In this document: positions 6,236 to 32,057 of the stretch, one piece after another | Numbering within the stretch: the stretch's first letter is position 1 | Layout: the number at the start of each line of letters is the position of its first letter | From: a virus | Length of the DNA: 33,468 nt | Direction: 5' to 3' (one strand) | IMG/VR virus record: IMGVR_UViG_3300025889_000493 | Location: 1 to 33,468 of that record | The notes under the pieces: generated by a model | The model's input: the letters and a program-made list of their open reading frames with translations, nothing else | The model's database searches: none | Told to the model about the DNA's origin: nothing | Program-made: the position numbers and the translations under genes

Positions 6236-7656
6236 TATTTAGTTAAACTCGCTATAGCTACTCCTAATCCCTGTTGGTAAGCAACATCTTGTTTACCTTG
6301 GTCAATTAGTGGTTTGAAATAATTATATACAAACTCATCTAATCCTGTAGAGAAAGCTGCTGAAACATCAGCATCTGACATTGATGGAGGTAATAAATAA
6401 TAATCTTGTTCTGTACCTGCTAACTTATCTTGAGCTGCTTGTTTAGCAACATCTACTCTAGCTTGTTCATAAATCTTTTGTGATTCTGCATATGCTGCAG
6501 ATAATCTTTCTATTTCTTTTCCTGCCCAGTCATAGATAACTTGATAATCTCTAACACTAGGATTAGCACCAATAGTATCTCTAACTGTTTGATTAACATT
6601 AAACTTTAAGAAATCTGGATTAGCTTGTGCTAACAATGTTGGTGCAGTAAGTATAGGATTGGTATCTCTTAAACTTATTTCAGATATTGAATCTATAAAA
6701 TAGTTTCTAAGAAAACCTAAGAATGCACCCTCATCTCCATTTGCTGCAGCATTAATTTCTTTCAAGTCATCTATATCTATTCCATATTCTGGTTTTGTAT
6801 TTAAATAACTAAATGCTGATTCTAATGCTTGTATGGTGGCATCTTCACCTGGTGTTCCTATTTCACCAATAGTTCCCATTACATAAGAACCAGGTTGTAA
6901 GAAACCAGCTTCCATTAGTTCTGTTTGTATTTCAATTATTCTTTCTGGTGCAAGTCCAGCTAAAAATGCTGGAGCTAAACCAAAGTTATACAAAGGTGTA
7001 AGTTTATTATTACCTGCTGCTTCTCTATAATTTTTTAATTGTATATCATCTTGTAATCCATAGAATGTCATTGGAGAATATTCAGATGCATATCTAGCAA
7101 AGTAACTATCATCTGTTATAGATGGTGTACCTAAATCTTTTAATTCAATAGAAGTAACTACATCTAATAAAGCTTCAGTATCTCCATCTGCTTTATACTT
7201 TTCATAAGCTGCATCAAGTAATCCTTTTTCACTTGCACCTAATTGGAAATCTCTTTTAGCTCTACCACCTGGTGTAGTATCAATATTAGATGAAACATAA
7301 TCTGCATATTCTGCATCTGCTTCTCTGATAATATCTGCTACATCTACATTTGCTGAAATTTCTTCAATAGGTTGTCCAGTTAATCCAGCTACAAATGCTG
7401 ATGTTATACCTTTTCTTCTGTTTAAATCTTCAGAAGTAGGAATTAAATATCTAGAAATAGCTTTCATTACTTCTGTATCTGCACCTTTTTCTAATAATAC
7501 AAGTACATCTTCTACAACATTCTTAGGCATATCAGGTAAAGCAGCAAAAAAAGCAGAAGTAAATTCTTTTGCTGTTAGTATTCCATTTTCTACTGCATCA
7601 TAAATAGACCTAAGTGTTAGTCCTATCTGTTGATACTTCTGCTGTTCTTTATCCAT
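6235..7656 (-). CDS. large helical virion protein (probable internal/ejection protein)
   Basis: 473 residues, start ATG preceded by GGAGG ten bases upstream and coupled to the giant gene. Predominantly helical, with repeated LxxA and Glu/Ala-rich stretches. Recognisable patches include ITSAFVAGLTGQPIEEISANV (residues about 83-103) and YNFGLAPAFLAGLAPERIIEIQ (about 222-243). The acidic C-terminal part is aromatic (LDEFVYNYFKPLIDQGKQD). No enzyme motif. Context between the giant protein and the lysozyme suggests an ejection-complex component. Family not recognised. Confidence 0.5.
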   Translation of the reverse strand: MDKEQQKYQQIGLTLRSIYDAVENGILTAKEFTSAFFAALPDMPKNVVEDVLVLLEKGADTEVMKAISRYLIPTSEDLNRRKGITSAFVAGLTGQPIEEISANVDVADIIREADAEYADYVSSNIDTTPGGRAKRDFQLGASEKGLLDAAYEKYKADGDTEALLDVVTSIELKDLGTPSITDDSYFARYASEYSPMTFYGLQDDIQLKNYREAAGNNKLTPLYNFGLAPAFLAGLAPERIIEIQTELMEAGFLQPGSYVMGTIGEIGTPGEDATIQALESAFSYLNTKPEYGIDIDDLKEINAAANGDEGAFLGFLRNYFIDSISEISLRDTNPILTAPTLLAQANPDFLKFNVNQTVRDTIGANPSVRDYQVIYDWAGKEIERLSAAYAESQKIYEQARVDVAKQAAQDKLAGTEQDYYLLPPSMSDADVSAAFSTGLDEFVYNYFKPLIDQGKQDVAYQQGLGVAIASLTK

Positions 7657-10600
7657 TAAGAATTACCTCCGTAAAATGTAACATCTGTATATTGTTCTTC
7701 AACTTCATACTTAAACAAATCGAGATAAATGTAATAGAAGTCTGGATATTGGGCAAATAACTCTTGAGATAATTGCCTTAATGCAGCTCTAGCTCCATCT
7801 AATTGTTCTCTTTGTAATGATACATTACTTCCTAAAACAAGTCTAGCTTCTGATAATATCCTATTCCTTTCATCCATATAAATAATTGCACCTTGTACTG
7901 CAGGTAAATCTTGTACAGCTACACTCTCACCATTAGGTAATTTAACTTTAGTAGCACCATCTTGTGCAATCATATCTTCAAACTCTCTTATCTTAGCTTC
8001 TACATCAATAGAAGTAGGTACTGAAGAGTTAACTCCATAACCAGGATATTCTTGTCTTAATTGATTTCTTAATGCTGTAAGCATTTCAAACTTTTGTTGG
8101 CTAGGAACATTAGCATACATTGGTGTATCAAATAGCATTCTTCTTTGATATTCATAAGCTAATCTACCTTGTGCATTTCTTATAGCAGATACATACTCAT
8201 CTTCAGATAAATCTATTCTATCTCTATTAGCAAAAGCATCAGACCAAGCATTAAAGTTAAATTCATCTAATGGATTATCAGGGAATATATAGTAACTAAT
8301 ATTTGGATATCTTGATAATAACTTATCGTTTTGTTTGCTAAATCTACCACCTTCTTCTGTATATGAACGCTTCTGTATTTCTTTAGATTTAGATGTTAAC
8401 AACGCAGAAGGTTCAACACCAAATTGATTTATAAACTCTGTAGTAGCTGCTAATTGGTCACCTTTATATTTAGCAAGTATTCTATAATATGCGTCTGCAA
8501 ATATTGACATACCAAAGTAATAACCATCTGGGTCGTTTTCTTTAAATTCAGCAGGGTCTAAATACAATGCACCACCTGGTGTAGTTTCAACTTCATATCT
8601 AACTACTGCACCTGTCGGAGCAGCAAACTGTACAGCAGCTCTAATCCAAGTTAATCTATTAGCAATAGTCTTAGCTTGTTCCATAGCATCTTGTTGTTTA
8701 GCTTTAGTTGAATCATCATAGACACCTGTAGTAATTAATACTCTTAATACATCTTTATAAGTATTTGCATAAGTACGCTTCATTTCAGGACTACTTGCTT
8801 TACCCATAGACAATAATTTCTTTAACCAAGATGGTATTGATTGCTCTAAGAATGTATAAGGACTTAATGCAGAACCTTCTTCTCTACCATAAGGAAAGAA
8901 TAATTTATCTAATAATTGTGAATCAGGTAACAACTTAGCAGCAGGTATTGCTACTAATGGTCCTAAACCTGGAACAGGATTACCTGCAACCATATTGAGT
9001 GATGATGAATATCCTTCTAACTTAACTCTTACATCTGGTGCTTCCATAGGTTGACCAGTTGTTGGATTCATAATAATTCTATTTTCATCTTCACCAAACA
9101 TCCAGTTAGTAAGTAACTCTGAACCAGGAAAGAAAAACATTTCTTCTCCTGACATTTCGTCTGTATGAAAGAAACCTTCTTCACCTTCTTCACCAGTTCC
9201 TCTAGCACCTTGAATAACACGCTGTACTTTTCTACCAGCTAATAGTTTTTGTTGATTAATTAATCTAGACCAAGTACCTATAATCTCCATATAAACTTCT
9301 GCGAAAGGAAAAGCTATTCTTAACATATCTGAAACAGTATGTCTTTTATTTAAATCATAAAGAAGTCTTTTAGTTTCTTCTAATGCATATGCTTTAGCAG
9401 CAGTATCTAATTCATCTATATTTTCTAAACCTAATACTCTACCATCTGTTGTTTTAATTTGTTTAGTTCCTTTTAACTTCTTAGCAGTAGAAGCAGCATT
9501 CTTAACCCATTGAGAAGCTGGTTGTTTAGCTTGTTCTATAATTTCTGACTTTAATGCATCATCATAGTATGCACCATTCTCTTCAATAAATCTCCAGTAG
9601 TATTGTCTAAAAGCAGATGAACGAGATAATCTGTTAGTTGGAACTGCCATAAATGCAGTAAACAAGGATTCAACTACTTGGTCATATTTATTAATTCTTT
9701 CTGCATTCATATCGTGTACAGACTTCTTCATATTATGACCAACATCATAAACTTTATCTTTTTTATTTTTATCTTTTAACCATTGCTTATATACCTTATG
9801 GTCATCTAATGTTTGACCTCTACCCCAAGTAATATATATTGGTTCACCTTTAGAATCTACACCAAGCTTTAATAAACCTGGTTTACCTGGTGGTTGAAAA
9901 TCTCTAGCTTTTTGTACTTGTTTACCAAAAGCAATATGTCTTATTAGTTCTTCATCTCCTGGCATAGTTATTTCGTGTCTTATAATAGATTCAAAAGTTT
10001 GTCTTGTATTAGCCGATACTGCTTCTTCTGAATTGTTTAATAATGTTCTACCACCATTAGCAAACTCTTCATATGTTTTATAATGTCCACCAGTTTTATA
10101 ATGTAACCTAGCAACTAAACCTTCTATGTAACCATCTGCTGCAGCTCTATCTGTAAGCATTTTACTCTTTTGATATTTACCTGCTTCATCTGAACCATAG
10201 GTCATAGCTCTTCTCCATTGAGATAAATCGCCATCCCAGAAATCATCTTTAATACTTTGTATTGCATCATCAGCAGAAACAACATCATCTAATGTAGCAT
10301 CGGAAACATCTTCTTTTAATATCTTTAGTTTTCTTTGTAGGTATTCATTTATACGAGGAGCTTTCTCATCTAACTTAGCTAAACCAGTTCCTATACCATC
10401 TTCAGGTAATACAACTACTTTACCTTTCCCTCTAGCATCTTCTATTAAAGCTAATGCTTCATCTATAGCTTTTACTGCTTCATCATAATTATCGTCACTA
10501 AAATATTTACTAGGAGATATTTTTGTTGGAATACCTATTGTGTTTGGATTATCTCTAATAACAGCTTGTCCTGCTTTACCTGTTCTAGCTAAGTTATCAC

Positions 10601-13600
10601 CAAATACAAATATTTTATTTGGATTGTTTTTTACTTTTTGAGAAGTAAAAGTTTTCATAGTAATTAATTCACCTCTAAATGTTCCATTAAAACCAGTAAG
10701 CCTATAAGCTATCTCTGCAGTTACTGGGTCATCTGATAGTTGCAATATTTCAGATGCAGCACCCGGGATAAATTTTTCCTTATCATTAATTCCTACATCT
10801 AGGAATGCCCAACTTCTTGATAAACCTTCTGGGTCTAGTACACCTCCGTGGCTTTGAGTTAAAGCAGATTGTGCTTCAAGTGAATCTCCTAATGTTTGAC
10901 CTTTAATATCATAAATACCTTTTGCAATTAATCTCTCTGCAACTTCTTCATCTCCATATCCTCTAACTTGATTAAACAAACGCTTTTTATCTTTACCCAT
11001 AAGCCAAGCAAATGCAGAAAGAGGATGACTAAATACATTATCTAATCCATCCATCCACATACGAATTTGTTCTTCACCTACAACTCTTGATGTCCAAGCA
11101 GCTCTAAGGAGGATTGCTGGTTTCCAAGCTTTATTCATAAAAGCATCACCCATTCTTCCTAGATAACCTGCAGTTAATTCTCTAACAATGTCATCTTCAC
11201 CTTTAGTTAATTTAAATTGTTTACGAGCATTTCTAACCATTAACTCTGCTGTTTCTTGTATAGTCTTATCGTCTTTGATACTTAACTCGTACAATCTGTT
11301 TAAAGGTTTAGCTAATTGTTTTTCAAACTCTGATGATATTAATTCATCTCCTTGTAGTCCTGGCAATCTCTTAGGTATTAAATGACTTTTACCAGCAGCT
11401 CTCATCCAAAATTCTCTAGCAGGAGAAAATACTCTTAAGAATAATCTTGCGTCAGGCATTGGTATAGCATCACTAGCCAAGTACTCAGCTACTAATTGAG
11501 CAGTAGGTCTACCTTTAACTCTTGCTATATTTTGTATATTTGCTTCTTGAAATAATTGTGTAGATACATTGTCTAATACAGTTTGGTCTTGTATCTTGTC
11601 TTGAAAGAAATCTAGTATTTGTTGAGGAGTAACTTTAGAATTTTTAATTACTCTTTTTCCTTTTTTAGTTTGACTAAAAGGAACTTTAGATTTTACAAAT
11701 AAAGGTCTAAGTAATTGTTCTATAGCTTCTTTGTTTTGTAATTTTCTAGGTCCAGCAACATTAACTTTTTTACCTTTAATTAAAGCTTGAGCTTTAGTAA
11801 TAAAATCATCTGTTAAATTAGGATTATCAACATTAATTAAAACTAATGGTTTATTTTTAGATTCAGCAAATACACCTGTATCATAATTATCTATATTTTT
11901 TTTAACGATATCTACCCAATCTTTACCTACCCATCGACCTCTAGATGCATAAAGAATTGTTTTAGCTGTGCCTGTGTCATTAAGTAATTCTTTTTTACTA
12001 AACACAACAATAGTTACATCTGTATTATCTACATTTGCACTTGTTCTTTTTGCGTACCAACTTGGTTTAGGTTGTAAAGAACCTATATCTGCAGTTTCTA
12101 ATTCTTTAATTTGGTCTAATAAATCTAATACTTTATTAACATCATTTCCTTGATATGTAGCTATATTGCTAACTTGTGTATATTGTTTTTGTGTAGCATC
12201 TAATTTTGCTCTTAAGGCAGCTAGTTCATCTCCACCTTGTTGTATAAACTCTTGATATGATTCCATATCAAATTCATCATATTCAATTACTCTAGTTTTT
12301 TTCATTGACCTTAAATCTTTTTCTGGAATGCTTCCACCAGTTTTTTTAATAGCATCACGAAAATCATCAAGTGTCCAGTTTGCAGGTATTCCTAAATCAG
12401 CTTCACCTTTTCTATATTCTAATATTTTTATACCGCTACCAGGTGTACCATCTCCGCCTACATAATAAGCAACTCTTTTGTTTTTTACAAAGTTCATTGG
12501 TGCAGCTTTAAATTTTAAATCGTATAATAAATCTTCAACAGATTGACCTTCAGATAATAAATCTTCTATTTCTTTTTTAGGAATTGAAACTTCTTTAATT
12601 CTTTTACCTTCTTGAGTAACACCTCTAAAGTTTTTACCTTCAAGTTTTATATTTAATCTTTGTAATGCTTCTTCTGCTATTTCAGCTTTTCGTATTAAAT
12701 CTTGTATTTCAGTATCAGAAGCATCTGGTCTAATAACACCTTTGGTTAATAACTGTTCTTTTTTAATTTCAATTTGTTTTTTTAATTCAATAATTTCATC
12801 TTCTAATTTAAACTGTGATTCTAAAGCACCAGGTCTATCTGATAATTGATACCTTTTTAAATAGTCATCAACAGCTTTTTGCATATCTTGATTTTTACTA
12901 GTATTAACATAACCACCTCTAGCTTTAAGTTCTATTGCTCTTTTTTTTGCTATTTCTCTTTTAGTAAGTTTAGAAAAAGGAACTTCCATTATTGCTTTGT
13001 AAGCTGCTATTTCTGCACTAGTTAATCTTTTCTCATCAAAATATCCTAAAAATTTATTACCCTTATCGTTCTTTAATATTCTTGTGTTAACAATTTCTAA
13101 TTGATTTCTTAAATCTGCTATAACATCATCAACAGTATCTTGTAAATTATATTTAGACAATTGTCCTGCTAAATGGTCATACCTACCATTTTTTGCAGTA
13201 GCTTGTGTAAGACCAGGCATACCTCTACCACCAGTTGGAATACCTAATTCTTCAGCAATTTGTAATCCTATAAAGTCTATGCCTTCTTGACCACCACTAT
13301 TAACTTCCTTAACAATAATGTCCATCTCTGGGTCTAATCTATCTATAGTTGCTTGTGGTTCAATCATTTCAAAGAAGTCATCTTTAAGTTGATTCATACT
13401 AGCTGTACCTTCAATATTTTTAATAATGTTATCTGGACCAGCTAATTCATATTCAACTCTTACCCATTCATCTTCTGGTTTTAATCCTCCTTTAGTAAAC
13501 TTCTTTTTTCTCGCTGCAGCTAAAGATGCACTAATTCTTTCTTTATAGTATTCAAAAGTGTAACCTTCTTTTTTAGCAATTTCTCTAGCTAATGTTTCTA

Positions 13601-16178
13601 GTTCTGGATTATCAAATAAATCTAATGGTATAGTTTCAACTTTATTAATTCTGACCATAACTTTTCTACCATTTTTAGTATTTTGAAATAATCTAATTTG
13701 TCCAACTTCAGGTCTAATTCGTCCATATCCTTTAAGAGTTCTAGATGTAGAAGTTCTAACTCCCTGAATAATTAATTCAATAGTAGAAGTATCTTTATTA
13801 GAAAATGGAGTACCTCTAACAGGTATATCATTATTCATTGCTATTACATTACCTTCAGCTTTAATGTCATTTATTTTTTGTTTACCAAATCTTTCATTAA
13901 TTATTTCAGATAATGCTCTAGCTTGATTATTATTAGTATTAGCAAACTTATCTGTTAATGTTTTACCTTGAGCTTTAATAGCTAATTGTTCTAGTAAATC
14001 AGGATTTTCGTCAGCCCAATCTTCCCATATTTTTTTATACCTTGGATAGTAATCAAAATTATCTATCTTTCTACCTGCTGCATCTACAGCTTCATTACCT
14101 TTAGCAGCTTTAATAGAGCTATAACCTTTTACTTTTGCCCATCTAAGTTCTACTGTATCGCCATTAGCAAACTTAGCATTTAATGCAGAAAACTGTTTAC
14201 CAAAGTCATCACCAGCAGTTGATATTTCAAATCCATCTTCTGCAAATCTTGCCCAACCAGCAGAAGTATTACCAGTACCAGGAGCATCATTAATTCTTGC
14301 AGCTAAATCTTCTTCAGCACTTCTAATTAATTTTCTTACTCCACCTACTTCTCTTTTTTTAATACCAGCTCTAGATGCTATATTTTCTACCATCTTTAAA
14401 GCTTCACTCATATCTAACTGTAAAGATAAAACATCATTACCAAAATTATCTAGTACATCTAACTTCTGACCTTGAAACCATTCTTCACCAAATGCAGTTC
14501 TAAAATATTTTCTTGTTTCATCAACAGAAGTCATAAACTTCCTAATGCCTTTAACTAATTCTTTAGGTAAATCTAAAGCTTCAAACTTTTGTTCTATGTG
14601 TGGTAATACACCACCTTCTCCGCCAAGTATATCTAATACATAAACAACTTTAGATAAGTTAGCAGGTCTTGGGTCTGCACCACCTTGTATAGCAATAGTT
14701 TGTAATACTTCATCATCAATACCATCTGCTAGTTTATCTAAAGCTTTCCAAGCAACTTCATTATCTACTTTGGCAAACTTCATCCAGTCTTTTAGTTCAA
14801 AGAAAGTTTGATTTAAATCATTAGCGTGTAATTTTGGTGTAGGAAATTGTTGAAATAATCTACCCCATTTGCTATCTTGATTTTTTAATTTAATAGCAGT
14901 TTTAAAACCTAGTCCAGAAACATCTGGACCATAAAATGCTTTAGCTGCTGTTCTTGAAAATTTACCTTTAAAAACTAAAGAGTTATTATCTAATCTTGTT
15001 TTAAATCTTATATTGTCATCAATAGCATTAATTAATAATCCTTTAACATCTTCTGTGTTAGTTGTATCTCTAAGCTTTTTAAGTATTGATGCACCATCTT
15101 CTAATTGTCTAAACTGACCTTTAGTAATAATATCTATGTCATCATAGTTATCTGCTTTAGCAATTATGTCTGCTATATCTGTACCAACTCTACCTTGAAA
15201 AAATTGTTTAGCTGTAGGTTGATGAACAGTAGCTCTAACAGCTTTATTAATAATACCTGCTTGACTTGTAGCAGTCTTATTAAATGTTCTAGCAGCTTTA
15301 CCTGCTTTAGATAAGCCTATACCTACATAAGTTGAAGGGTCAGTAAATATTGTATATGCACCATCAATAAGACCTGACATAAATTTAAATGCTCTAGAAC
15401 CTGGTTCAAATATTTCTACTGCTGCAACACGACCAGGAGATAATTTAACTGTACCTCTTCTACCAGAGTAAGATAATGCAGCTCTTTCTCTATCATCTAT
15501 AGTTGCTTGTGATAAAGGCTTTCCATAATAATCTTGTATTATTTCTTTAACTTGCTCTGCATCTGCACCTCTACCAACAAGTTCTTTATATACTTCTGTA
15601 TCTTCAGCTAATGTAGAGTTACCAAAATAACCTTCACCTAAGTTAACTTTGTTACCTTTAGCAAACTCTCTAACAGCTCTACCAGCTAATGTAGGTCCTG
15701 TTTCTTCAAATACATTTTTAAGTTCTGTATAAAAATCTGGATTTAATGTAGCTGCTAATGTACCTATACCAGTAAAGTACAATAAAGGATTTTGTTGTTT
15801 CTTTGAATAGTAACGCATACCTGCAGTACCATATCTTTTAACAAATTGACTAGCAGATTCCATTCCAACAAATGCAGTTCTAATTGCACCTCTACCTGCT
15901 GCTTTAATACTTTCCCACCAACTTCTTTCTTTATCCATAAAGGATTCAATAATAGAAGTAAACTCTGGACTTTCTTTAGTAAGACCAACCATAGCTGCAC
16001 CAACTTGTACATCAGGTGGTAAAAATCCATATTGTTGAGAAATACCAGCTAAGTTATCAGCAATATTATTTTGAGCAAAAAAGTTTCTTAATTCTTGTGC
16101 TTGTTGTTTTCTTTGTTTTACAAAATCGCTATCTAAAGCATCTTGATAGGGTGATGTAAAACTCCACTCCCACGCCAT
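7656..16178 (-). CDS. giant polyvalent virion protein with embedded ASCH-like, split SLOG (YpsA-like) and FGDN/DUF7831-like domains
   Basis: 2840 residues, a quarter of the window; GGAG lies seven bases before the ATG, inside the preceding stop region. The N-terminal ~300 residues and the C-terminal ~900 (from about 1950) are helical and virion-like, with hydrophobic patches such as NPLLYFTGIGTLAATLN, AWKPAILLRAAWTSRVVGEEQ and GNPVPGLGPLVAIPAAKLL. The middle holds separate modules: an ASCH/PUA-like region (about 785-920; IQGVRTSTSR, KVMVRINKVETI, EGYTFEYY); a YpsA-type SLOG start (about 952-990; NSGGQEGIDFIGLQIAEELG, IPTGGRGMPG) whose second half is found at about 1370-1480 (RTSANVDNTDVTIVVF, KPLVLINVD, VNVAGPRK); and an FGDN/DUF7831-like domain (about 1840-1958; FVFGDNLARTGKAGQAVIR, GIPTKISPSKYFSDD, LPEDGIGTGLAKL). 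It is likely ejected into the host with the DNA. Domain names are my recognition from motifs, without a profile search. Confidence 0.75.
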   Translation of the reverse strand: MAWEWSFTSPYQDALDSDFVKQRKQQAQELRNFFAQNNIADNLAGISQQYGFLPPDVQVGAAMVGLTKESPEFTSIIESFMDKERSWWESIKAAGRGAIRTAFVGMESASQFVKRYGTAGMRYYSKKQQNPLLYFTGIGTLAATLNPDFYTELKNVFEETGPTLAGRAVREFAKGNKVNLGEGYFGNSTLAEDTEVYKELVGRGADAEQVKEIIQDYYGKPLSQATIDDRERAALSYSGRRGTVKLSPGRVAAVEIFEPGSRAFKFMSGLIDGAYTIFTDPSTYVGIGLSKAGKAARTFNKTATSQAGIINKAVRATVHQPTAKQFFQGRVGTDIADIIAKADNYDDIDIITKGQFRQLEDGASILKKLRDTTNTEDVKGLLINAIDDNIRFKTRLDNNSLVFKGKFSRTAAKAFYGPDVSGLGFKTAIKLKNQDSKWGRLFQQFPTPKLHANDLNQTFFELKDWMKFAKVDNEVAWKALDKLADGIDDEVLQTIAIQGGADPRPANLSKVVYVLDILGGEGGVLPHIEQKFEALDLPKELVKGIRKFMTSVDETRKYFRTAFGEEWFQGQKLDVLDNFGNDVLSLQLDMSEALKMVENIASRAGIKKREVGGVRKLIRSAEEDLAARINDAPGTGNTSAGWARFAEDGFEISTAGDDFGKQFSALNAKFANGDTVELRWAKVKGYSSIKAAKGNEAVDAAGRKIDNFDYYPRYKKIWEDWADENPDLLEQLAIKAQGKTLTDKFANTNNNQARALSEIINERFGKQKINDIKAEGNVIAMNNDIPVRGTPFSNKDTSTIELIIQGVRTSTSRTLKGYGRIRPEVGQIRLFQNTKNGRKVMVRINKVETIPLDLFDNPELETLAREIAKKEGYTFEYYKERISASLAAARKKKFTKGGLKPEDEWVRVEYELAGPDNIIKNIEGTASMNQLKDDFFEMIEPQATIDRLDPEMDIIVKEVNSGGQEGIDFIGLQIAEELGIPTGGRGMPGLTQATAKNGRYDHLAGQLSKYNLQDTVDDVIADLRNQLEIVNTRILKNDKGNKFLGYFDEKRLTSAEIAAYKAIMEVPFSKLTKREIAKKRAIELKARGGYVNTSKNQDMQKAVDDYLKRYQLSDRPGALESQFKLEDEIIELKKQIEIKKEQLLTKGVIRPDASDTEIQDLIRKAEIAEEALQRLNIKLEGKNFRGVTQEGKRIKEVSIPKKEIEDLLSEGQSVEDLLYDLKFKAAPMNFVKNKRVAYYVGGDGTPGSGIKILEYRKGEADLGIPANWTLDDFRDAIKKTGGSIPEKDLRSMKKTRVIEYDEFDMESYQEFIQQGGDELAALRAKLDATQKQYTQVSNIATYQGNDVNKVLDLLDQIKELETADIGSLQPKPSWYAKRTSANVDNTDVTIVVFSKKELLNDTGTAKTILYASRGRWVGKDWVDIVKKNIDNYDTGVFAESKNKPLVLINVDNPNLTDDFITKAQALIKGKKVNVAGPRKLQNKEAIEQLLRPLFVKSKVPFSQTKKGKRVIKNSKVTPQQILDFFQDKIQDQTVLDNVSTQLFQEANIQNIARVKGRPTAQLVAEYLASDAIPMPDARLFLRVFSPAREFWMRAAGKSHLIPKRLPGLQGDELISSEFEKQLAKPLNRLYELSIKDDKTIQETAELMVRNARKQFKLTKGEDDIVRELTAGYLGRMGDAFMNKAWKPAILLRAAWTSRVVGEEQIRMWMDGLDNVFSHPLSAFAWLMGKDKKRLFNQVRGYGDEEVAERLIAKGIYDIKGQTLGDSLEAQSALTQSHGGVLDPEGLSRSWAFLDVGINDKEKFIPGAASEILQLSDDPVTAEIAYRLTGFNGTFRGELITMKTFTSQKVKNNPNKIFVFGDNLARTGKAGQAVIRDNPNTIGIPTKISPSKYFSDDNYDEAVKAIDEALALIEDARGKGKVVVLPEDGIGTGLAKLDEKAPRINEYLQRKLKILKEDVSDATLDDVVSADDAIQSIKDDFWDGDLSQWRRAMTYGSDEAGKYQKSKMLTDRAAADGYIEGLVARLHYKTGGHYKTYEEFANGGRTLLNNSEEAVSANTRQTFESIIRHEITMPGDEELIRHIAFGKQVQKARDFQPPGKPGLLKLGVDSKGEPIYITWGRGQTLDDHKVYKQWLKDKNKKDKVYDVGHNMKKSVHDMNAERINKYDQVVESLFTAFMAVPTNRLSRSSAFRQYYWRFIEENGAYYDDALKSEIIEQAKQPASQWVKNAASTAKKLKGTKQIKTTDGRVLGLENIDELDTAAKAYALEETKRLLYDLNKRHTVSDMLRIAFPFAEVYMEIIGTWSRLINQQKLLAGRKVQRVIQGARGTGEEGEEGFFHTDEMSGEEMFFFPGSELLTNWMFGEDENRIIMNPTTGQPMEAPDVRVKLEGYSSSLNMVAGNPVPGLGPLVAIPAAKLLPDSQLLDKLFFPYGREEGSALSPYTFLEQSIPSWLKKLLSMGKASSPEMKRTYANTYKDVLRVLITTGVYDDSTKAKQQDAMEQAKTIANRLTWIRAAVQFAAPTGAVVRYEVETTPGGALYLDPAEFKENDPDGYYFGMSIFADAYYRILAKYKGDQLAATTEFINQFGVEPSALLTSKSKEIQKRSYTEEGGRFSKQNDKLLSRYPNISYYIFPDNPLDEFNFNAWSDAFANRDRIDLSEDEYVSAIRNAQGRLAYEYQRRMLFDTPMYANVPSQQKFEMLTALRNQLRQEYPGYGVNSSVPTSIDVEAKIREFEDMIAQDGATKVKLPNGESVAVQDLPAVQGAIIYMDERNRILSEARLVLGSNVSLQREQLDGARAALRQLSQELFAQYPDFYYIYLDLFKYEVEEQYTDVTFYGGNS

Positions 16179-23956: not shown

Positions 23957-24202
23957 TATAATCCCACCCACCAACCCCAACAACGCCCATATAAACAAAC
24001 ATACTAGATAAAGGAACGATGGTCTGATACCCAAAGATATTCTATGTACACCAGAGTGACCCACACATTAATAACATAAAGAAAAAATAATATAAAAGTC
24101 TATAAGCATAAGTAAAGCAAAAAAAATTTAACATAATATATGCATAGATATGCATTCAAAGATATACGAAATTGTCAAGTCATTCTATATAAATAAGAAA
24201 AT

Positions 24203-24256
24203 TCGCAAAAAATTTTCGCAGTCGCAAAATAATTTTGTCGCCAAAATTTTGTCGGC
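24203..24256. repeat. three tandem AAAATTTT repeats flanked by CGC/GTCGC
   Basis: Copies at 24203-24219, 24221-24241 and 24239-24256 share an A-run/T-run core bordered by CGC or GTCGC, with the last two overlapping in a shared CGC. Each is near-palindromic. They lie just upstream of a TATGCAT palindrome and the gene at 24294. Iteron or operator array. Confidence 0.5.
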
Positions 24257-24276
24257 TATATGCATTATTGCATATA
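24257..24276. promoter_or_regulatory. TATATGCA palindrome (operator candidate)
   Basis: TATATGCA-TTAT-TGCATATA, 8-bp perfect arms, ending about 18 bases before the ATG at 24294. Two further TATGCAT words lie at 24139-24155. The same word makes up the 21-bp repeats in front of the HTH gene at 30731. Confidence 0.5.
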
Positions 24277-24293
24277 TATTAGAAAGGAAAGTT

Positions 24294-24836
24294 ATGTCAA
24301 AACAATATAGAAAGCCTAGTGTTCCTCGCACTAAGAGAACACTTGTCGGTTATGATAAGCTCAATGATGTGCCTTTAGTAATCGACACCAACATACCAGA
24401 TTTGTCTGGTACTAGAGAGCCACAACAGAATATACCAGATGGAGATAAGTACCTATGGACTTGTCGCTTTTGTCAAGCTACTACAAAGGTAGGTCGTAAA
24501 GTATGTTCCCTATGTAATAGAGATGCTGATACTGTAATCAAGATTGCAGATAAAGTAGATGAATACACAGAGCATAAAGAAAACTGCGATTGTTGTACCT
24601 GTGATGTATTAGAGATTACTGATGATGAGATTACATTAACCTACGATTGTAACTGTATCTGTATATACGAACCACAGAATATAGAAAGCGTTAGAGATGG
24701 ACAATGGAAACCAAGTAATCGATATGACACTTATGTAATAGAAGTTAATGAGCCTAAGTGTATAGAGTGTTTCATTATTCTACCTATAGAGTTTGTTACA
24801 AATGGTTTAAGAAAGTGTGAGAGCTGTAGAAAATAA
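24294..24836 (+). CDS. multi-zinc-finger early protein
   Basis: 180 residues from the ATG at 24294, preceded by AGAAAGGA. Seventeen or so Cys form several metal-site-like clusters. A zinc ribbon TCRFC...VCSLC (Cys 57, 60, 71, 74) is followed by a dense cluster CDCCTC...CNCIC (98-123). A second ribbon, KCIECF...KCESC, comes last (156, 159, 175, 178). The basic N-terminus has RKPSVPRTKR. Such proteins may bind nucleic acid or host transcription machinery, but there is no specific family match. It lies between the origin-like region and the long-stem RNA array. Confidence 0.7.
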   Translation: MSKQYRKPSVPRTKRTLVGYDKLNDVPLVIDTNIPDLSGTREPQQNIPDGDKYLWTCRFCQATTKVGRKVCSLCNRDADTVIKIADKVDEYTEHKENCDCCTCDVLEITDDEITLTYDCNCICIYEPQNIESVRDGQWKPSNRYDTYVIEVNEPKCIECFIILPIEFVTNGLRKCESCRK

Positions 24837-24839
24837 TTT

Positions 24840-24910
24840 TATTAGGTAGCATATGGGTTTTAATACAGGCAGTCATAAGCCTCCTTTCGTTCCCTGTATG
24901 CTACTTAATA
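24840..24910 (+). ncRNA. long-stem RNA a (14-bp closing stem)
   Basis: Begins four bases after a stop codon. TATTAGGTAGCATA (24840-24853) pairs with TATGCTACTTAATA (24897-24910): 14 bp with one G-U. Inside, ACAGG...CCTGT or AGGC...GCCT can form. It shares four bases with the next hairpin. Not a tRNA: no D-arm and too short between the arms. Confidence 0.55.
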
Positions 24911-24970
24911 CCTACACATATATGCCGTGTTCTAAAGTATAAGTTCATTGTTATCGGTAGTGTAGGTATT
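24907..24970 (+). ncRNA. long-stem RNA b (11-bp perfect closing stem)
   Basis: AATACCTACAC (24907-24917) pairs perfectly with GTGTAGGTATT (24960-24970). The 42-nt interior shows no strong internal helix by eye. The left arm overlaps the right arm of the previous hairpin by AATA, so the two could compete or coaxially stack. Confidence 0.5.
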
Positions 24971-24975
24971 TAATA

Positions 24976-25034
24976 AAGCTATCTATAAGCAACTGTTCAA
25001 AGTAAATCCCTTGAGGTTGCGAGATAGGTAGCTT
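24976..25034 (+). ncRNA. long-stem RNA c
   Basis: AAGCTATCTAT (24976-24986) pairs with ATAGGTAGCTT (25024-25034), 11 bp with one G-U. Inside, GCAAC (24989-24993) pairs with GTTGC (25016-25020), then TCAA/TTGA. Its right arm is the same sequence that forms the base of the next hairpin's left arm, so hairpins c and d cannot both form fully. Confidence 0.5.
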
Positions 25035-25152
25035 GTAACACATAGGAACGCATAAGGTTGGAAACTCTATGCATAGGACTAGAGATATGAAATACCATAT
25101 AAACAATGTAATTCCAGTTTGGTACGCTAACTATGTGTTACAAGCTATCTAT
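25024..25152 (+). ncRNA. long-stem RNA d (22-bp closing stem)
   Basis: ATAGGTAGCTTGTAACACAT plus AG (25024-25045) pairs with 25131-25152 over 22 bp. The inner 17 (25029-25045 with 25131-25147) are perfect. The interior contains GCATA...TATGC (25050-25072 region) and ATATG-AAATAC-CATAT. It is closely related to RNA e, with almost identical arms but a different interior. Confidence 0.6.
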
Positions 25153-25160
25153 TAGTAAGA

Positions 25161-25190
25161 GTGTATATTGTTTGTACCCTGTTGATACAC
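25161..25190 (+). other. short hairpin between RNAs d and e
   Basis: GTGTAT (25161-25166) pairs with ATACAC (25185-25190), 6 bp perfect around an 18-nt loop. It fills the only gap between the two related long-stem elements. Confidence 0.4.
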
Positions 25191-25199
25191 GACTGAAAG

Positions 25200-25302
25200 T
25201 AGGTAGCTTGTAGCACATAGGACATAAAGATATAGTAATATATCACCCGAGCAAGGTCGGCAGGGTAACCAAGACCATTGACTGTGTGTTACAAGCTATC
25301 TA
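25200..25302 (+). ncRNA. long-stem RNA e (21-bp closing stem)
   Basis: 25200-25220 (TAGGTAGCTTGTAGCACATA plus G) pairs with 25282-25302 over 21 bp including three G-U. The interior has GATATA-GTAA-TATATC (25229-25244; GNRA loop) and an ACCC...GGGT hairpin (25245-25265). Compared with RNA d, an A-to-G change in the left arm keeps pairing as G-U, which supports the stem. The right arm ends just before the AGAAAGGA site of the next gene, so folding could affect that gene's translation. Confidence 0.6.
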
Positions 25303-25317
25303 TATAGAAAGGAATAT

Positions 25318-25482
25318 ATGATGGATATGTTATGTGATATGTGCCGTAAAGGTAATTATATCCGTTTATTGATAGAAGCTAATGTTAAATCCTCTGTATA
25401 TCACAGAGTGATGTGTTCATTTTGCAAATATCAAACAGTAAAGAGAAGCAATATAAAGAGAGATGAAAGGAGATTACTCTAA
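25318..25482 (+). CDS. 54-residue zinc-ribbon protein
   Basis: Starts ATGATG at 25318 with AGAAAGGA upstream and ends TAATG into the next gene. Contains LCDMC (Cys 6, 9) and MCSFC (Cys 33, 36) with a basic C-terminus (KRSNIKRDERRLL): a simple four-Cys zinc ribbon. First gene of the operon that runs to about 30.5 kb, placed directly after the long-stem RNA array. Function unknown. Confidence 0.65.
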   Translation: MMDMLCDMCRKGNYIRLLIEANVKSSVYHRVMCSFCKYQTVKRSNIKRDERRLL

Positions 25483-28066: not shown

Positions 28067-28762
28067 ATGAAAGAGAGTATATGCTGGGATTTGTTTAACG
28101 CAGTTATCGGTGCTACACCAAGAGTTTTGCTCTATGGTGTTCCGGGTACAGGTAAAACATATCAAGCTAACACAACTAATTTAGAGGGCAGAGAAAGTTA
28201 CAATATCACATTGACACAAGACAGTAGTGCTAGTGAATTGTTAGGACATTATGTTCTTAATGAAACTGGTGGTATGGATTGGTTAGATGGTGTAGGTATT
28301 CAAGCTTGGAAAAGTGGTGCAAGACTTGTGATAAACGAGATTGACCACGCAGGTGTTGATGTAATGTCGTTCTTACACGCTTTACTAGATGACCCTGATT
28401 TTGCAAAATTTACTTTGCCTAACAAGAATAAAGAAACAGTAAGACCACAACCTAGCTTCCAAGTAATAGCTACTATGAACGGAGTACCAGAGGACTTACC
28501 AGAAGCTTTACAAGATAGATTTCCTGTAAAGATAAACATTGATACTGTACATCCTACTGCAATAGAAAGTTTGCCAGAAAAACTTCGTGCTGTATATGGT
28601 GATTACAACAATGGCGAGTTTTCTATTCGTAAGTGGATTGCTCTAGGTGAATTACTTGACCAAGATGTACCATTAGATACTGCATTGGAAGTTATCTTAC
28701 CTACAGAGAAAGAGAATATAATTGACGCTTTAGTTGTAGCTGATGCTACTGATAAAGAATAA
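28067..28762 (+). CDS. MoxR/CobS-type AAA+ ATPase
   Basis: 231 residues: Walker A GVPGTGKT (24-31), Walker B LVINEID (87-93), sensor-1 Asn in IATMNG (138), and an arginine-finger region ALQDRF (148-152). The short C-terminal lid is typical of MoxR/CobS. Such ATPases form hexamers and work with a VWA-domain partner to remodel or insert metal into target complexes. The partner is encoded next, with a one-base overlap. The phage annotation 'CobS' does not imply cobalamin synthesis here; no other cobalamin gene is present. A chaperone role during takeover is inferred. Confidence 0.85.
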   Translation: MKESICWDLFNAVIGATPRVLLYGVPGTGKTYQANTTNLEGRESYNITLTQDSSASELLGHYVLNETGGMDWLDGVGIQAWKSGARLVINEIDHAGVDVMSFLHALLDDPDFAKFTLPNKNKETVRPQPSFQVIATMNGVPEDLPEALQDRFPVKINIDTVHPTAIESLPEKLRAVYGDYNNGEFSIRKWIALGELLDQDVPLDTALEVILPTEKENIIDALVVADATDKE

Positions 28763-30549
28763 TGCTGTTTGTTAAAAGAGCTAAGATTAAGGAAGCCAAA
28801 GAGTTTCCTAATCTAGCTTTACAAAAAGAAGGTGTAAAAACTAACAAAGTTAGTGAAGCTATAAGTGCAAAAAAGTATCTTAGTAAAGGTAATGTAGTTC
28901 CTGTTGTTATTAATAATAATGATAACGATAGAATAGAAAAACTTATTGCTTTAGCACAAACTAAATTGTTTGGTAGAAACACTAGGTATCTTAATCTAAG
29001 TAAAATTGATTTAAATTATGCGGTTCCTGTAGCAGAGAGAATTGCATCATCTTGGTCGGTTAGTAAGTGGGTTAATAGAGCTACTTGGAAAAGTAAGTTT
29101 AGTGGTGCTGAGTTAGTTAGTATTACTGAAAAACTACCTAAGATACCTACACATATTTTAAGAAAAGCTATTACTAGTTTAGTACAAGCTTATTACTTAA
29201 ATGCACCTGTTGATAAGTTATATGAATTATTAATGCACACACTACCTTATTATACTTTTGGATATGATAGGTGGTATGGATATTACACATATCAGTGTAA
29301 ATACATTAACAATCATATAGCTGAAAATGAAACAGAGCATTTTGATTTATTAACAACTTATGCTATGTATTCTAGTTGGGAAGAACACAATAACCCAAGT
29401 AGTTTTAACCTTAACGATGTATTACATATGCTAGTATATCAAGCTGTTAAATCTGAAATGCCTTTAGCTAATAAGTACCAAGTGTATCAAGATTACTTGT
29501 ACATTATAAAAGATGTATCAAGTGTAATTAAGATGCAAAACCACGCTCTTGATGTATTGAAGAATAAAAGGAATGATACTGTTTCACAAGCTAATGTAAA
29601 AAAGATGATTAAGTATCTAACCTTTAATAACTTTAAAAATGTTAGAGAAATATATCATACTAAAACTGGTAGTAAATATGGACTTCTAGAACGAGGTACG
29701 CCTACTTCTAATAAGTTAGTTGAAGATATACCTGATGAATTACTTAGTAATAAGTTTAATATTCAATATGGTGAATTAACAGAAGTAGAAGAAAAAGATA
29801 TTAATAAAGAAATGTCTGACTTTAAACCTATGGCTTTTCCTAGTTATATTAGTGATGATTTATCAACTAAGATAATGGAAGAAGCTAATAAAAACTTTCA
29901 GAAAAATATTATTGATATCAATGGTACTAGAGGTGTTCACGGCAAAGGATTAATGCACAAGTTTATTCCTAATAGAAGGGATAAAGTTGCTGAGATGAAA
30001 CTACACAGACAGCTTAGTGATAGTGGTGTTAAACCTAGAAACATACACAGAATACTTACTGATAGAAAAGTATTTGCTCGTAGAAAAAAGATAGCAGGTG
30101 GCTCTGTTCTCATAGACTTTAGTGGTTCTATGGGTTGGAGTGTAGAACAGGTTAAAGAAATAATTAGAATACTACCTGCTTCTGTTATCGCTGGTTATAC
30201 AGGATACACTACAAGTCGTTCTGTTAATAGTAAACTTTATCACGGAGATATTCGTATCATTGCTGATAAGGGTAAGTATGATGATAGTGCTATTGATAAG
30301 TTATTTAAACACGGCAATAACAACATTGATTATGAAGCTCTACAATGGCTCTCTCAACAAGAAGAACCAAGAATATGGGTAAGCGACCAACAAGTTATTG
30401 GTGTATTTGAAGATGATGTAGCTATTAGATTAAATCAAAAAAGCAGGGTTGATATTGCACGGATTATGAGCCGTAATAATATTATACCTATAGAAGATTA
30501 TGAATATGCTAAAGAGTTTGCAACTCAATATGCTAATCATATAGGTTAA
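28762..30549 (+). CDS. CobT-like VWA-domain protein, partner of the AAA+ ATPase
   Basis: 595 residues, start overlapping the ATPase stop. A long N-terminal helical region (about 1-400) resembles CobT/VWA partners in being Lys-, Asn- and Tyr-rich. Near residue 452 is the MIDAS motif DFSGSMGWS (D-x-S-x-S). GYTGYTTSRSVNSK and a C-terminal EALQWLSQQEEPRIWVSDQQ region follow, as in a VWA fold. It binds Mg2+ and docks the client to the AAA+ ring. The pair occurs in several marine phages. Followed by a hairpin and a strong terminator. Confidence 0.8.
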   Translation: MLFVKRAKIKEAKEFPNLALQKEGVKTNKVSEAISAKKYLSKGNVVPVVINNNDNDRIEKLIALAQTKLFGRNTRYLNLSKIDLNYAVPVAERIASSWSVSKWVNRATWKSKFSGAELVSITEKLPKIPTHILRKAITSLVQAYYLNAPVDKLYELLMHTLPYYTFGYDRWYGYYTYQCKYINNHIAENETEHFDLLTTYAMYSSWEEHNNPSSFNLNDVLHMLVYQAVKSEMPLANKYQVYQDYLYIIKDVSSVIKMQNHALDVLKNKRNDTVSQANVKKMIKYLTFNNFKNVREIYHTKTGSKYGLLERGTPTSNKLVEDIPDELLSNKFNIQYGELTEVEEKDINKEMSDFKPMAFPSYISDDLSTKIMEEANKNFQKNIIDINGTRGVHGKGLMHKFIPNRRDKVAEMKLHRQLSDSGVKPRNIHRILTDRKVFARRKKIAGGSVLIDFSGSMGWSVEQVKEIIRILPASVIAGYTGYTTSRSVNSKLYHGDIRIIADKGKYDDSAIDKLFKHGNNNIDYEALQWLSQQEEPRIWVSDQQVIGVFEDDVAIRLNQKSRVDIARIMSRNNIIPIEDYEYAKEFATQYANHIG

Positions 30550-30730: not shown

Positions 30731-31009
30731 ATGAAAGATATAAAGATAGAATATAATGTAGATGACTTGCTCAATAAAGCAACGACTAATGCTATAGGTG
30801 GAACTGTATCTTGGTATAAAAGATTACCAGAACAAGCTAAACCTTTTATTGATGAGTTATCTCGCAGGGTTGTAAACGAGGGTGCGAAAGCTAACGCTCG
30901 TGTAGTATCAGAAATTCTATCCAATGAATTTAACTTTGATGTTTCATACTCAAGAGTTAGACATTGGTTAGTTGATTTAGAGAAACAGTATGCCGAAAAA
31001 TCCAGCTAA
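30731..31009 (+). CDS. small HTH DNA-binding protein
   Basis: 92 residues. N-terminal half VDDLLNKATTNAIGGTVSWYKRLPEQ is helical; the C-terminal half ARVVSEILSNEFNFDVSYSRVRHWL is a helix-turn-helix (about 58-82). I recall similar small HTH proteins encoded immediately before a metallophosphoesterase in actinophages. Probably leaderless and controlled by the 21-bp repeats upstream, so autoregulation is likely. It overlaps the next gene by 20 bases. A small-terminase function is an alternative, but the position far from terminase argues against it. Confidence 0.7.
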   Translation: MKDIKIEYNVDDLLNKATTNAIGGTVSWYKRLPEQAKPFIDELSRRVVNEGAKANARVVSEILSNEFNFDVSYSRVRHWLVDLEKQYAEKSS

Positions 31010-32057
31010 TAAACAACTAGCTACTCTCATAGCTGAAGCCGAAAGCGATAAGATTAAAGAACTTAAAGACACCAATGAGCGTCTATTAAAACAAATTGAC
31101 AAGCTTAAGGATAAGAAAGCAGATATGATTGATGCAGTTTATAAAGGTGCTAAAGATGGTATGAGTACTCTAACAATTCCTAAAATAACAAAACCTAATC
31201 TAAACAAAGTCCGTAGTAAAGACACCGAGATATGCGTACCTTTGCTCTCTGATATACAGTTGGCGAAGAGAACCACAGACTATGACAGTTTTGTTGCAGA
31301 GGAAAGAGTAGTTGAATATGCAAATCGTATAGTCAAACTTACTAATATACAAAGACAGTCACACACAGTAAACAAATGTGTGGTACTTGCACTAGGAGAT
31401 ATAGTGGAAGGAGAATTAATTTTTCCAGGGCAGTCACATTTAATTGACAGTTCTTTGTATAAGCAAGTTACTGTAGATGGACCACGAATACTATTTACTT
31501 TCTTTAGTATTTTATTACAAGCATTTGATGAGGTAGAATGTTATTGGGTGATTGGTAATCACGGAGCATTAGGTGGTCGCTCAAGGCGTGACTACTCCCC
31601 TGAAACTAATGCAGATAGAATGTTAGGTAAAATACTATCGACTATGTTCGCTAACGAAAAGCGAATTAAATTTCACATTCCTGAAGGTGTTGATAACCAT
31701 TGGTATGCAGTAGCAGACCTAGGTGTTAAAGCTAAGTTCCTATGTTTTCACGGAGATAATATTCGTGGAAGTATGGGATTACCTTTCTATGGTTACAGCA
31801 AAAAAATACTAGGGTGGAAAGCATTAGCTTCACAAGGGTTAATGGAAAATTTCACCCACGCAGTATGCGGACATTATCACACACCAACATCACTATATAT
31901 TAATGATGTGCGTGTATGGATTAATGGCTCAACTGAAAGTTATAACAGTTATGCACAGGAACAATTAGCAAGTATGGGTAGACCATCACAATTTTGTTTG
32001 TTTGTGAAACCCAACAAAGGAGTTACTGCTGAATACCTTGTTAACCTTGAGGAGTGA
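30990..32057 (+). CDS. calcineurin-like metallophosphoesterase
   Basis: 355 residues. A charged coiled coil (about 15-50) precedes the catalytic domain: SDIQLA (D88, Q90 replacing the usual D-x-H), GDIVEGE (136-142), GNHGA (189-193), then CFHGDN and a CGHYHTP motif. Family members are dinuclear phosphodiesterases or DNA nucleases, and phage ones are often called SbcD-like or DNA-repair exonucleases. The D-x-Q change is common in some phage branches but would alter one metal site. It probably acts in DNA metabolism with the HTH partner upstream and the SSB-like protein downstream. Confidence 0.8.
   Translation: MPKNPANKQLATLIAEAESDKIKELKDTNERLLKQIDKLKDKKADMIDAVYKGAKDGMSTLTIPKITKPNLNKVRSKDTEICVPLLSDIQLAKRTTDYDSFVAEERVVEYANRIVKLTNIQRQSHTVNKCVVLALGDIVEGELIFPGQSHLIDSSLYKQVTVDGPRILFTFFSILLQAFDEVECYWVIGNHGALGGRSRRDYSPETNADRMLGKILSTMFANEKRIKFHIPEGVDNHWYAVADLGVKAKFLCFHGDNIRGSMGLPFYGYSKKILGWKALASQGLMENFTHAVCGHYHTPTSLYINDVRVWINGSTESYNSYAQEQLASMGRPSQFCLFVKPNKGVTAEYLVNLEE

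Follow-up and report, generated by a model that had tools for sequence, protein, structure and literature searches.

The window analysed here is a 33,468-base fragment of the virus record IMGVR_UViG_3300025889_000493 with divergent gene blocks. Within its right-hand, plus-strand block lies a gap (24837-25317, +), bordered on one side by up228 (24150-24836, +), an ORF for a Cys-rich protein with no match in Pfam, PHROG or NCBIfam, and on the other by p54 (25318-25482, +), which encodes a small CxxC...CxxC protein and is kept as the neighbour of the array in the window's subgroup. On the plus strand of the gap no ORF reaches 45 codons, and the array is directly followed by the ribosome site GAAAGG (25307-25312) and the start codon of p54 (together 25307-25320, +). 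Elsewhere in the window, a MoxR/CobS-like AAA ATPase gene and then a gene whose vWA product carries a DxSGSM motif (28067-30549) are conserved throughout the phage group, and one minus-strand ORF of 2,840 aa (7656-16178) takes up a quarter of the fragment, with just two PHROG matches, both weakly informative.

As RNA of the plus strand, the gap folds at -153 kcal/mol, compared with -113 +/- 6.6 kcal/mol for dinucleotide shuffles (z -6.0, 0 of 100 as good); the minus strand has a z of -4.4. When pairs are limited to 175 nt, the z of the gap is -7.3 versus -1.8 for nearby coding sequence. The hairpins that a sequence-only reading had claimed for this gap are thus real and go beyond chance. Their limits, however, are those given below, and the picture of six consecutive hairpins gives way to one of alternating shared boxes. 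The modules are delimited by two 8-nt boxes, TAGGTAGC and GCTATCTA, which have opposite polarity and occur in alternation throughout the arrays; 483 steps from box to box (254 + 229) alternate versus 26 that do not. In the window, boxes start at 24843, 24900 (a variant), 24978, 25025, 25144, 25200 and 25295. In segments of a first type, to which modules d and e belong, the arms are usually extended to about 22 bp, TAGGTAGCTTGTARCACATA / TGTGTGTTACAAGCTATCTA, and these common arms recur among modules while the interiors differ. Segments of a second type (module c and a short module) are closed by the same boxes, read in the opposite sense. Boxes and long arms together form closing stems of about 18-25 bp. 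Since each box can close either neighbour, the modules are overlapping alternatives rather than six independent hairpins, and the two sets of closures compete for the boxes. Constrained folding gives -105.7 kcal/mol for the first type (d/e) and -97.6 kcal/mol for the second (c/short), so that the d/e closure is predicted to be preferred in the window by about 8 kcal/mol. Some arrays (L023 4331-4507, L025 4492-4616, L045 2683-2830) open with long hairpins that lack the usual boxes, e.g. TATCACTACTGCGTAG...CTATGCAGTAGTGATA, perhaps another type of scaffold.

Module a (24843-24907, +), defined by its fold and boxes, consists of a TAGGTAGC...GCTACTTA stem and an unpaired loop with CCTCCTTTC at 24880-24888, where the motif CCTTTC has a probability of 0.93 of being unpaired. 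This loop resembles the 3' end of bacterial 16S rRNA (anti-Shine-Dalgarno) and is also complementary to the p54 ribosome site. Module b (24908-24969, +) folds as a ATACCTACAC...GTGTAGGTAT hairpin. Module c (24978-25032, +) has GCTATCTA...TAGGTAGC as closing boxes and is a weak member of the short-module family, matched by covariance model R1 (described below) with 22.2 bits and an E value of 7e-4. In module d (25023-25153, +), identified by its fold and by cargo homologues, the common arm TAGGTAGCTTGTAACACATA / TATGTGTTACAAGCTATCTA pairs over 23 bp, and the cargo recurs in five other loci (L013, L075, L108, L154 and L211). The cargo reads as a putative pseudoknot, by eye and not by a formal covariation count. 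Its stem S1 would join UUGGAA (25058-25063, +) with UUCCAG (25112-25117), for which L013 has UAGGAA/UUCCUG, and its stem S2 would join UACC (25093-25096, +) with GGUA (25121-25124), with AACC/GGUU in L013 and GGCG/CGCC in L070. The hairpin earlier placed at 25161-25190 is actually longer: the short module spans 25144-25207 (+; model R1), with a P1 box stem (25144-25151 with 25200-25207), an AGUA(A/G)GA internal loop, P2, the loop CCCUGUU and ACUGAA. Finally, module e (25199-25303, +) is supported by its fold, by arm matches and by a cargo homologue in L109, and its common arm TAGGTAGCTTGTAGCACATA / TGTGTGTTACAAGCTATCTA pairs over 22 bp.

The phosphoesterase p355 gene (30990-32057), used as a query, retrieved 80 related virus loci with 71-92% protein identity; the vWA gene as a single-protein query retrieved none. 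The order up228, gap, p54 is kept in 22 records including the window, with gap lengths of 147-663 nt. All 20 distinct gap sequences, that is, the window's and 19 others in the same syntenic position, are chains of long hairpins (sense z -3.5 to -12.6); their antisense folds are mostly weaker, and coding controls give z values of -0.3 to -5.5. Arms of 20-24 nt are 95-100% identical, while the neighbouring proteins are often only 30-60% identical, and the arms are conserved far more than the sequence between them.

We then consider which strand, and which nucleic acid, is under selection. Modules were collected by a rule that treats both strands alike (strict Watson-Crick pairing only), and in the resulting 178 unique modules from 104 loci the arms contain 318 G.U pairs and 2 A.C pairs on the operon sense strand, counts that are not independent events, as many arms are inherited, near-identical copies. 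Pairing is nevertheless kept in about 50 different arm sequences. G.U counts as a pair only in RNA of this sense strand and is a mismatch in DNA. Because the non-Watson-Crick arm pairs are G.U and not A.C, it is the sense-strand RNA that is selected. In loci oriented by their genes, the exact common arm occurs 141 times in sense and 0 times in antisense orientation. These counts bear on the idea that the inverted repeats work as DNA, as recombination or replication structures or protein-binding palindromes, with RNA irrelevant. The repeats are exact, and recombination has clearly occurred in or beside the arms, as such a role would have it; but the arm-pair count contradicts it, since G.U would be a mismatch in DNA and the A.C counterparts are absent, and in most arrays the sense fold is more stable than the antisense one. 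We regard a DNA-level function as very improbable.

The short module allows covariation to be followed in detail. Copies were collected by the interior alone (AGUARGA ... CCYUGUU ... CUGAA), leaving the flanks unused, and 38 of the 39 unique copies show pairing at all 9 flanking positions when set in the best register. When 31 short modules are aligned, changes on both sides occur in 14 of 17 pairs, with 59 double-change cells and 96.9% of the cells paired; none of 500 shuffles attains even one of these values, which are lost when the partners are slid. RNAalifold, unaided, predicts nearly the same structure, and covariance model R1, built from 24 copies with the window left out, finds the window's copy at 25144-25207 with 74.2 bits (E = 3e-18). 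The sequence-only reading had accepted that homologues without covariation would count against it; in fact the relatives covary, and their G.U pairs are sense-specific. Its proposal that structured RNAs are chained here in a way not described before, with long stems closing them around interiors that vary, is supported.

Between the boxes lie 376 unique segments of about 25 to 160 nt, falling into at least 164 sequence clusters by their interiors. Just 59 of the 164 clusters have two or more members, so the sampling of cargos is far from complete. The same cargo may occupy either box orientation. Some cargos are pseudoknots, others T-arm-like hairpins (GUAGGUUCAAAUCCUAC, cluster 5) or hairpins whose loops are C-rich. 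Counting one representative per cluster, CCCTGT is present in 23 (2.7 expected), CCCTTT in 18 (2.3) and CCTTTC in 12 (0.9), with no enrichment of their reverse complements across the same representatives; by folding, the C-rich motif tends to be unpaired (0.59 vs 0.42 for whole modules). The C-rich loops (CCUCCUUUC in module a) are like the 16S 3' end, but the two MAGs behind phage-bearing contigs contain no 16S for comparison, and mimicry of 16S rRNA was not kept as a reading. At several loci (L056 4651-4812, L058 2069-2206, L123, L136 and L216) cargos of about 100 nt combine a T-arm-like hairpin with a cloverleaf-like layout, possibly a tRNA mimic; ARAGORN calls no tRNA in such cargos where it was run.

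Comparison of loci shows that the cargos are replaced between the same arms. In 11 locus pairs, the 80-bp flanks on both sides are 80-100% identical and the arms are nearly always the same, while the interiors are unrelated; the independent swaps number fewer than 11, since some of these pairs share one locus. The clearest pair is L118 and L142, with both flanks 100% identical, and between L023 and L026 a rare arm variant has been kept while an interior of about 48 nt was replaced by one of about 170 nt. Matching flanks around unrelated interiors demonstrate cassette exchange. The possibility that the arms arose by recent duplication is thereby recast: the arms are indeed homologous, but cassette exchange explains them and recent tandem duplication alone does not.

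The position of the arrays could also suggest that the hairpins act in cis, separating, stabilising or processing the polycistronic phage mRNA as RNase III sites, stability hairpins, antitermination elements or translation control of the next gene, with the cargo of little importance. This is the main rival explanation because a ribosome site usually follows closely on the end of the array (median 40 nt from array end to the next start codon). In addition, they lie within the operon in sense orientation, the stem length fits RNase III, and GAAAGG ribosome sites could be masked by the C-rich loops. However, the cargo sequences are conserved and covary, which plain spacers would not need, the genes downstream of arrays are of at least 37 kinds, and the cargos move among unrelated phages; we consider this cis role unlikely, though clearly less so than the other rivals. 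In L078, the array has been relocated to a different gene gap.

The exact 20-nt arm is found in at least 120 stretches of IMG/VR contigs but in none of the 84,980 prokaryote (GTDB) species genomes, and the arms match nothing in 50,697 cultured-phage records; the array DNA likewise has no match among cultured phages. Five loci (L119, L128, L154, L172 and L174) carry arrays together with a terminase of another family (Terminase_6N) and match neither the terminase nor the phosphoesterase of the window; 11 of the 16 cassette clusters in this second group are common to other loci. L154 and L172 have several arrays per genome. Sharing by unrelated phages, common 20-nt inverted arms and many genomic positions would suit selfish small mobile elements, MITE-like or REP-like, with the arms as terminal inverted repeats. 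Such elements are an improbable explanation: the antisense orientation is never seen (141:0), the arms have G.U and not A.C pairs, the exact arm is absent from the prokaryote genomes, the interiors are mutually unrelated whereas MITEs share theirs, and arms and flanks are retained in the swaps. A packaging or replication RNA, one of the roles suggested earlier, is less likely because the cargos are many and different and the arrays occur in two unrelated phage groups.

No conserved protein is common to the two phage groups within the stretches read, so a common partner, if there is one, is more likely to be a host protein. The nearest cultured relatives of the terminase, portal and phosphoesterase are Streptomyces phages at only 22-42% identity, and the closest of these, phage Dagobah (L229), has no R1 match. 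Two MAG phage contigs with short-module copies were binned as marine Actinomycetota, while other binned contigs are labelled otherwise. Actinomycetota are likely hosts because of the Streptomyces phages and these two contigs.

A Y-RNA-like particle was also considered, in which the vWA protein of the operon would be a Ro60-like partner of the common stem and the cargo an effector module. The vWA gene does lie in the same operon, and a long stem with tRNA-arm-like cargos occurs at some loci. However, an alignment of 66 vWA homologues, an AlphaFold model (pLDDT 81) and searches of Pfam, PDB sequences and Foldseek gave no Ro60 or TROVE: the TROVE domain is absent from all 66 homologues, and the vWA protein has no PDB sequence match and no Foldseek match below 0.001. 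The AAA neighbour of vWA is CobS/MoxR-like, and the second group of phages has no conserved protein in common with the first in the stretches read. This explanation is scarcely credible.

Altogether, the sense-strand RNA is selected, the scaffold of alternating boxes and sense-specific stems is shared, and the structured cargos within it are conserved, swapped, and held in common by unrelated phages, as expected of an exchangeable RNA cassette array. We propose, with a probability slightly above one half, that the gap is one such polycistronic phage array of exchangeable structured RNAs, which probably undergo processing and act on host targets in trans. The array would be co-transcribed with the surrounding operon, and its stems of about two turns would be cut, or would protect the ends. 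RNase III requires about two helical turns, and the host enzyme is the obvious candidate for such cutting. The products would be stable RNAs of 50-130 nt that may act in trans on varying host macromolecules, such as defence factors, toxin RNases or translation, the last via the C-rich CCCUUUC/CCCUGUU loops. Changing host targets would then favour swapping by recombination within the conserved arms; cargo turnover under a fixed scaffold is what an arms race would predict.

A wider and more tentative proposal is that phages of uncultured aquatic bacteria share one library of structured RNA effectors, more than 100 in number and exchanged horizontally. All would be carried on the same kind of RNA scaffold, and each would disarm or hijack a host factor different from those of the others. 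Such a library could do with RNA what anti-defence gene islands do with genes, and its own swap mechanism would lie at the stems of the scaffold. If this is true, phages own a modular system of RNA weapons that they can share, and its cargos could be read from metagenomes via the common arms. It would provide more than 100 new RNA families whose targets can be tested, a new way for unrelated viruses to exchange cassettes and, for biotechnology, natural RNA aptamers that come with a scaffold. Even if the elements act in cis, the RNA architecture is an unusual one that is widespread among uncultured phages and that Rfam lacks.

As for known families, the Rfam search called for in the sequence-only reading left the window without any match: neither the window nor any of 11 further loci gave a covariance-model score above the gathering cut-off, and a looser scan of 19 arrays gave just microRNA-like and similar chance matches, all below the cut-offs. 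Nothing similar was found in the literature outside preprints and most subscription journals, and none of the known families compared here fits.

T4 RNA C and D and the RNA anti-CRISPRs are phage-encoded structured RNAs or RNA decoys. GOLLD and ROOL are phage-encoded structured non-coding RNA as well (PMC12286853). All of these resemble the arrays in being phage-encoded, non-coding and structured, but each is a single family, whereas here more than 100 unrelated cargos, unmatched in Rfam, sit in one exchangeable stem. Phage tRNA gene arrays likewise cluster structured RNAs in phage operons, and some cargos here have a T-arm-like hairpin; however, ARAGORN finds 0 tRNA genes in the window and 21 relatives. 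Bacterial Y RNAs (YrlA) with Ro60 also have a common closing stem and a separate, sometimes tRNA-like module, but here the Ro60 protein is absent and Rfam gives no match. A CRISPR array has identical direct repeats and unique spacers of constant length, whereas here the boxes alternate in polarity and cargo length ranges from about 25 to 160 nt. The ToxI RNAs of type III toxin-antitoxin systems are likewise tandem, small and structured, include pseudoknots, and are cut from one transcript; however, they repeat directly in near-identical copies next to a toxin gene (ToxN-like), whereas here neighbouring cassettes are unrelated to each other and unmatched in Rfam, and a non-exhaustive search saw no toxin gene. 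In integron gene-cassette arrays, as in these arrays, the cassettes can be exchanged and a structured site common to them forms their boundaries; integrons carry genes, whereas here the cargo is a structured RNA and the boundaries are selected as RNA stems.
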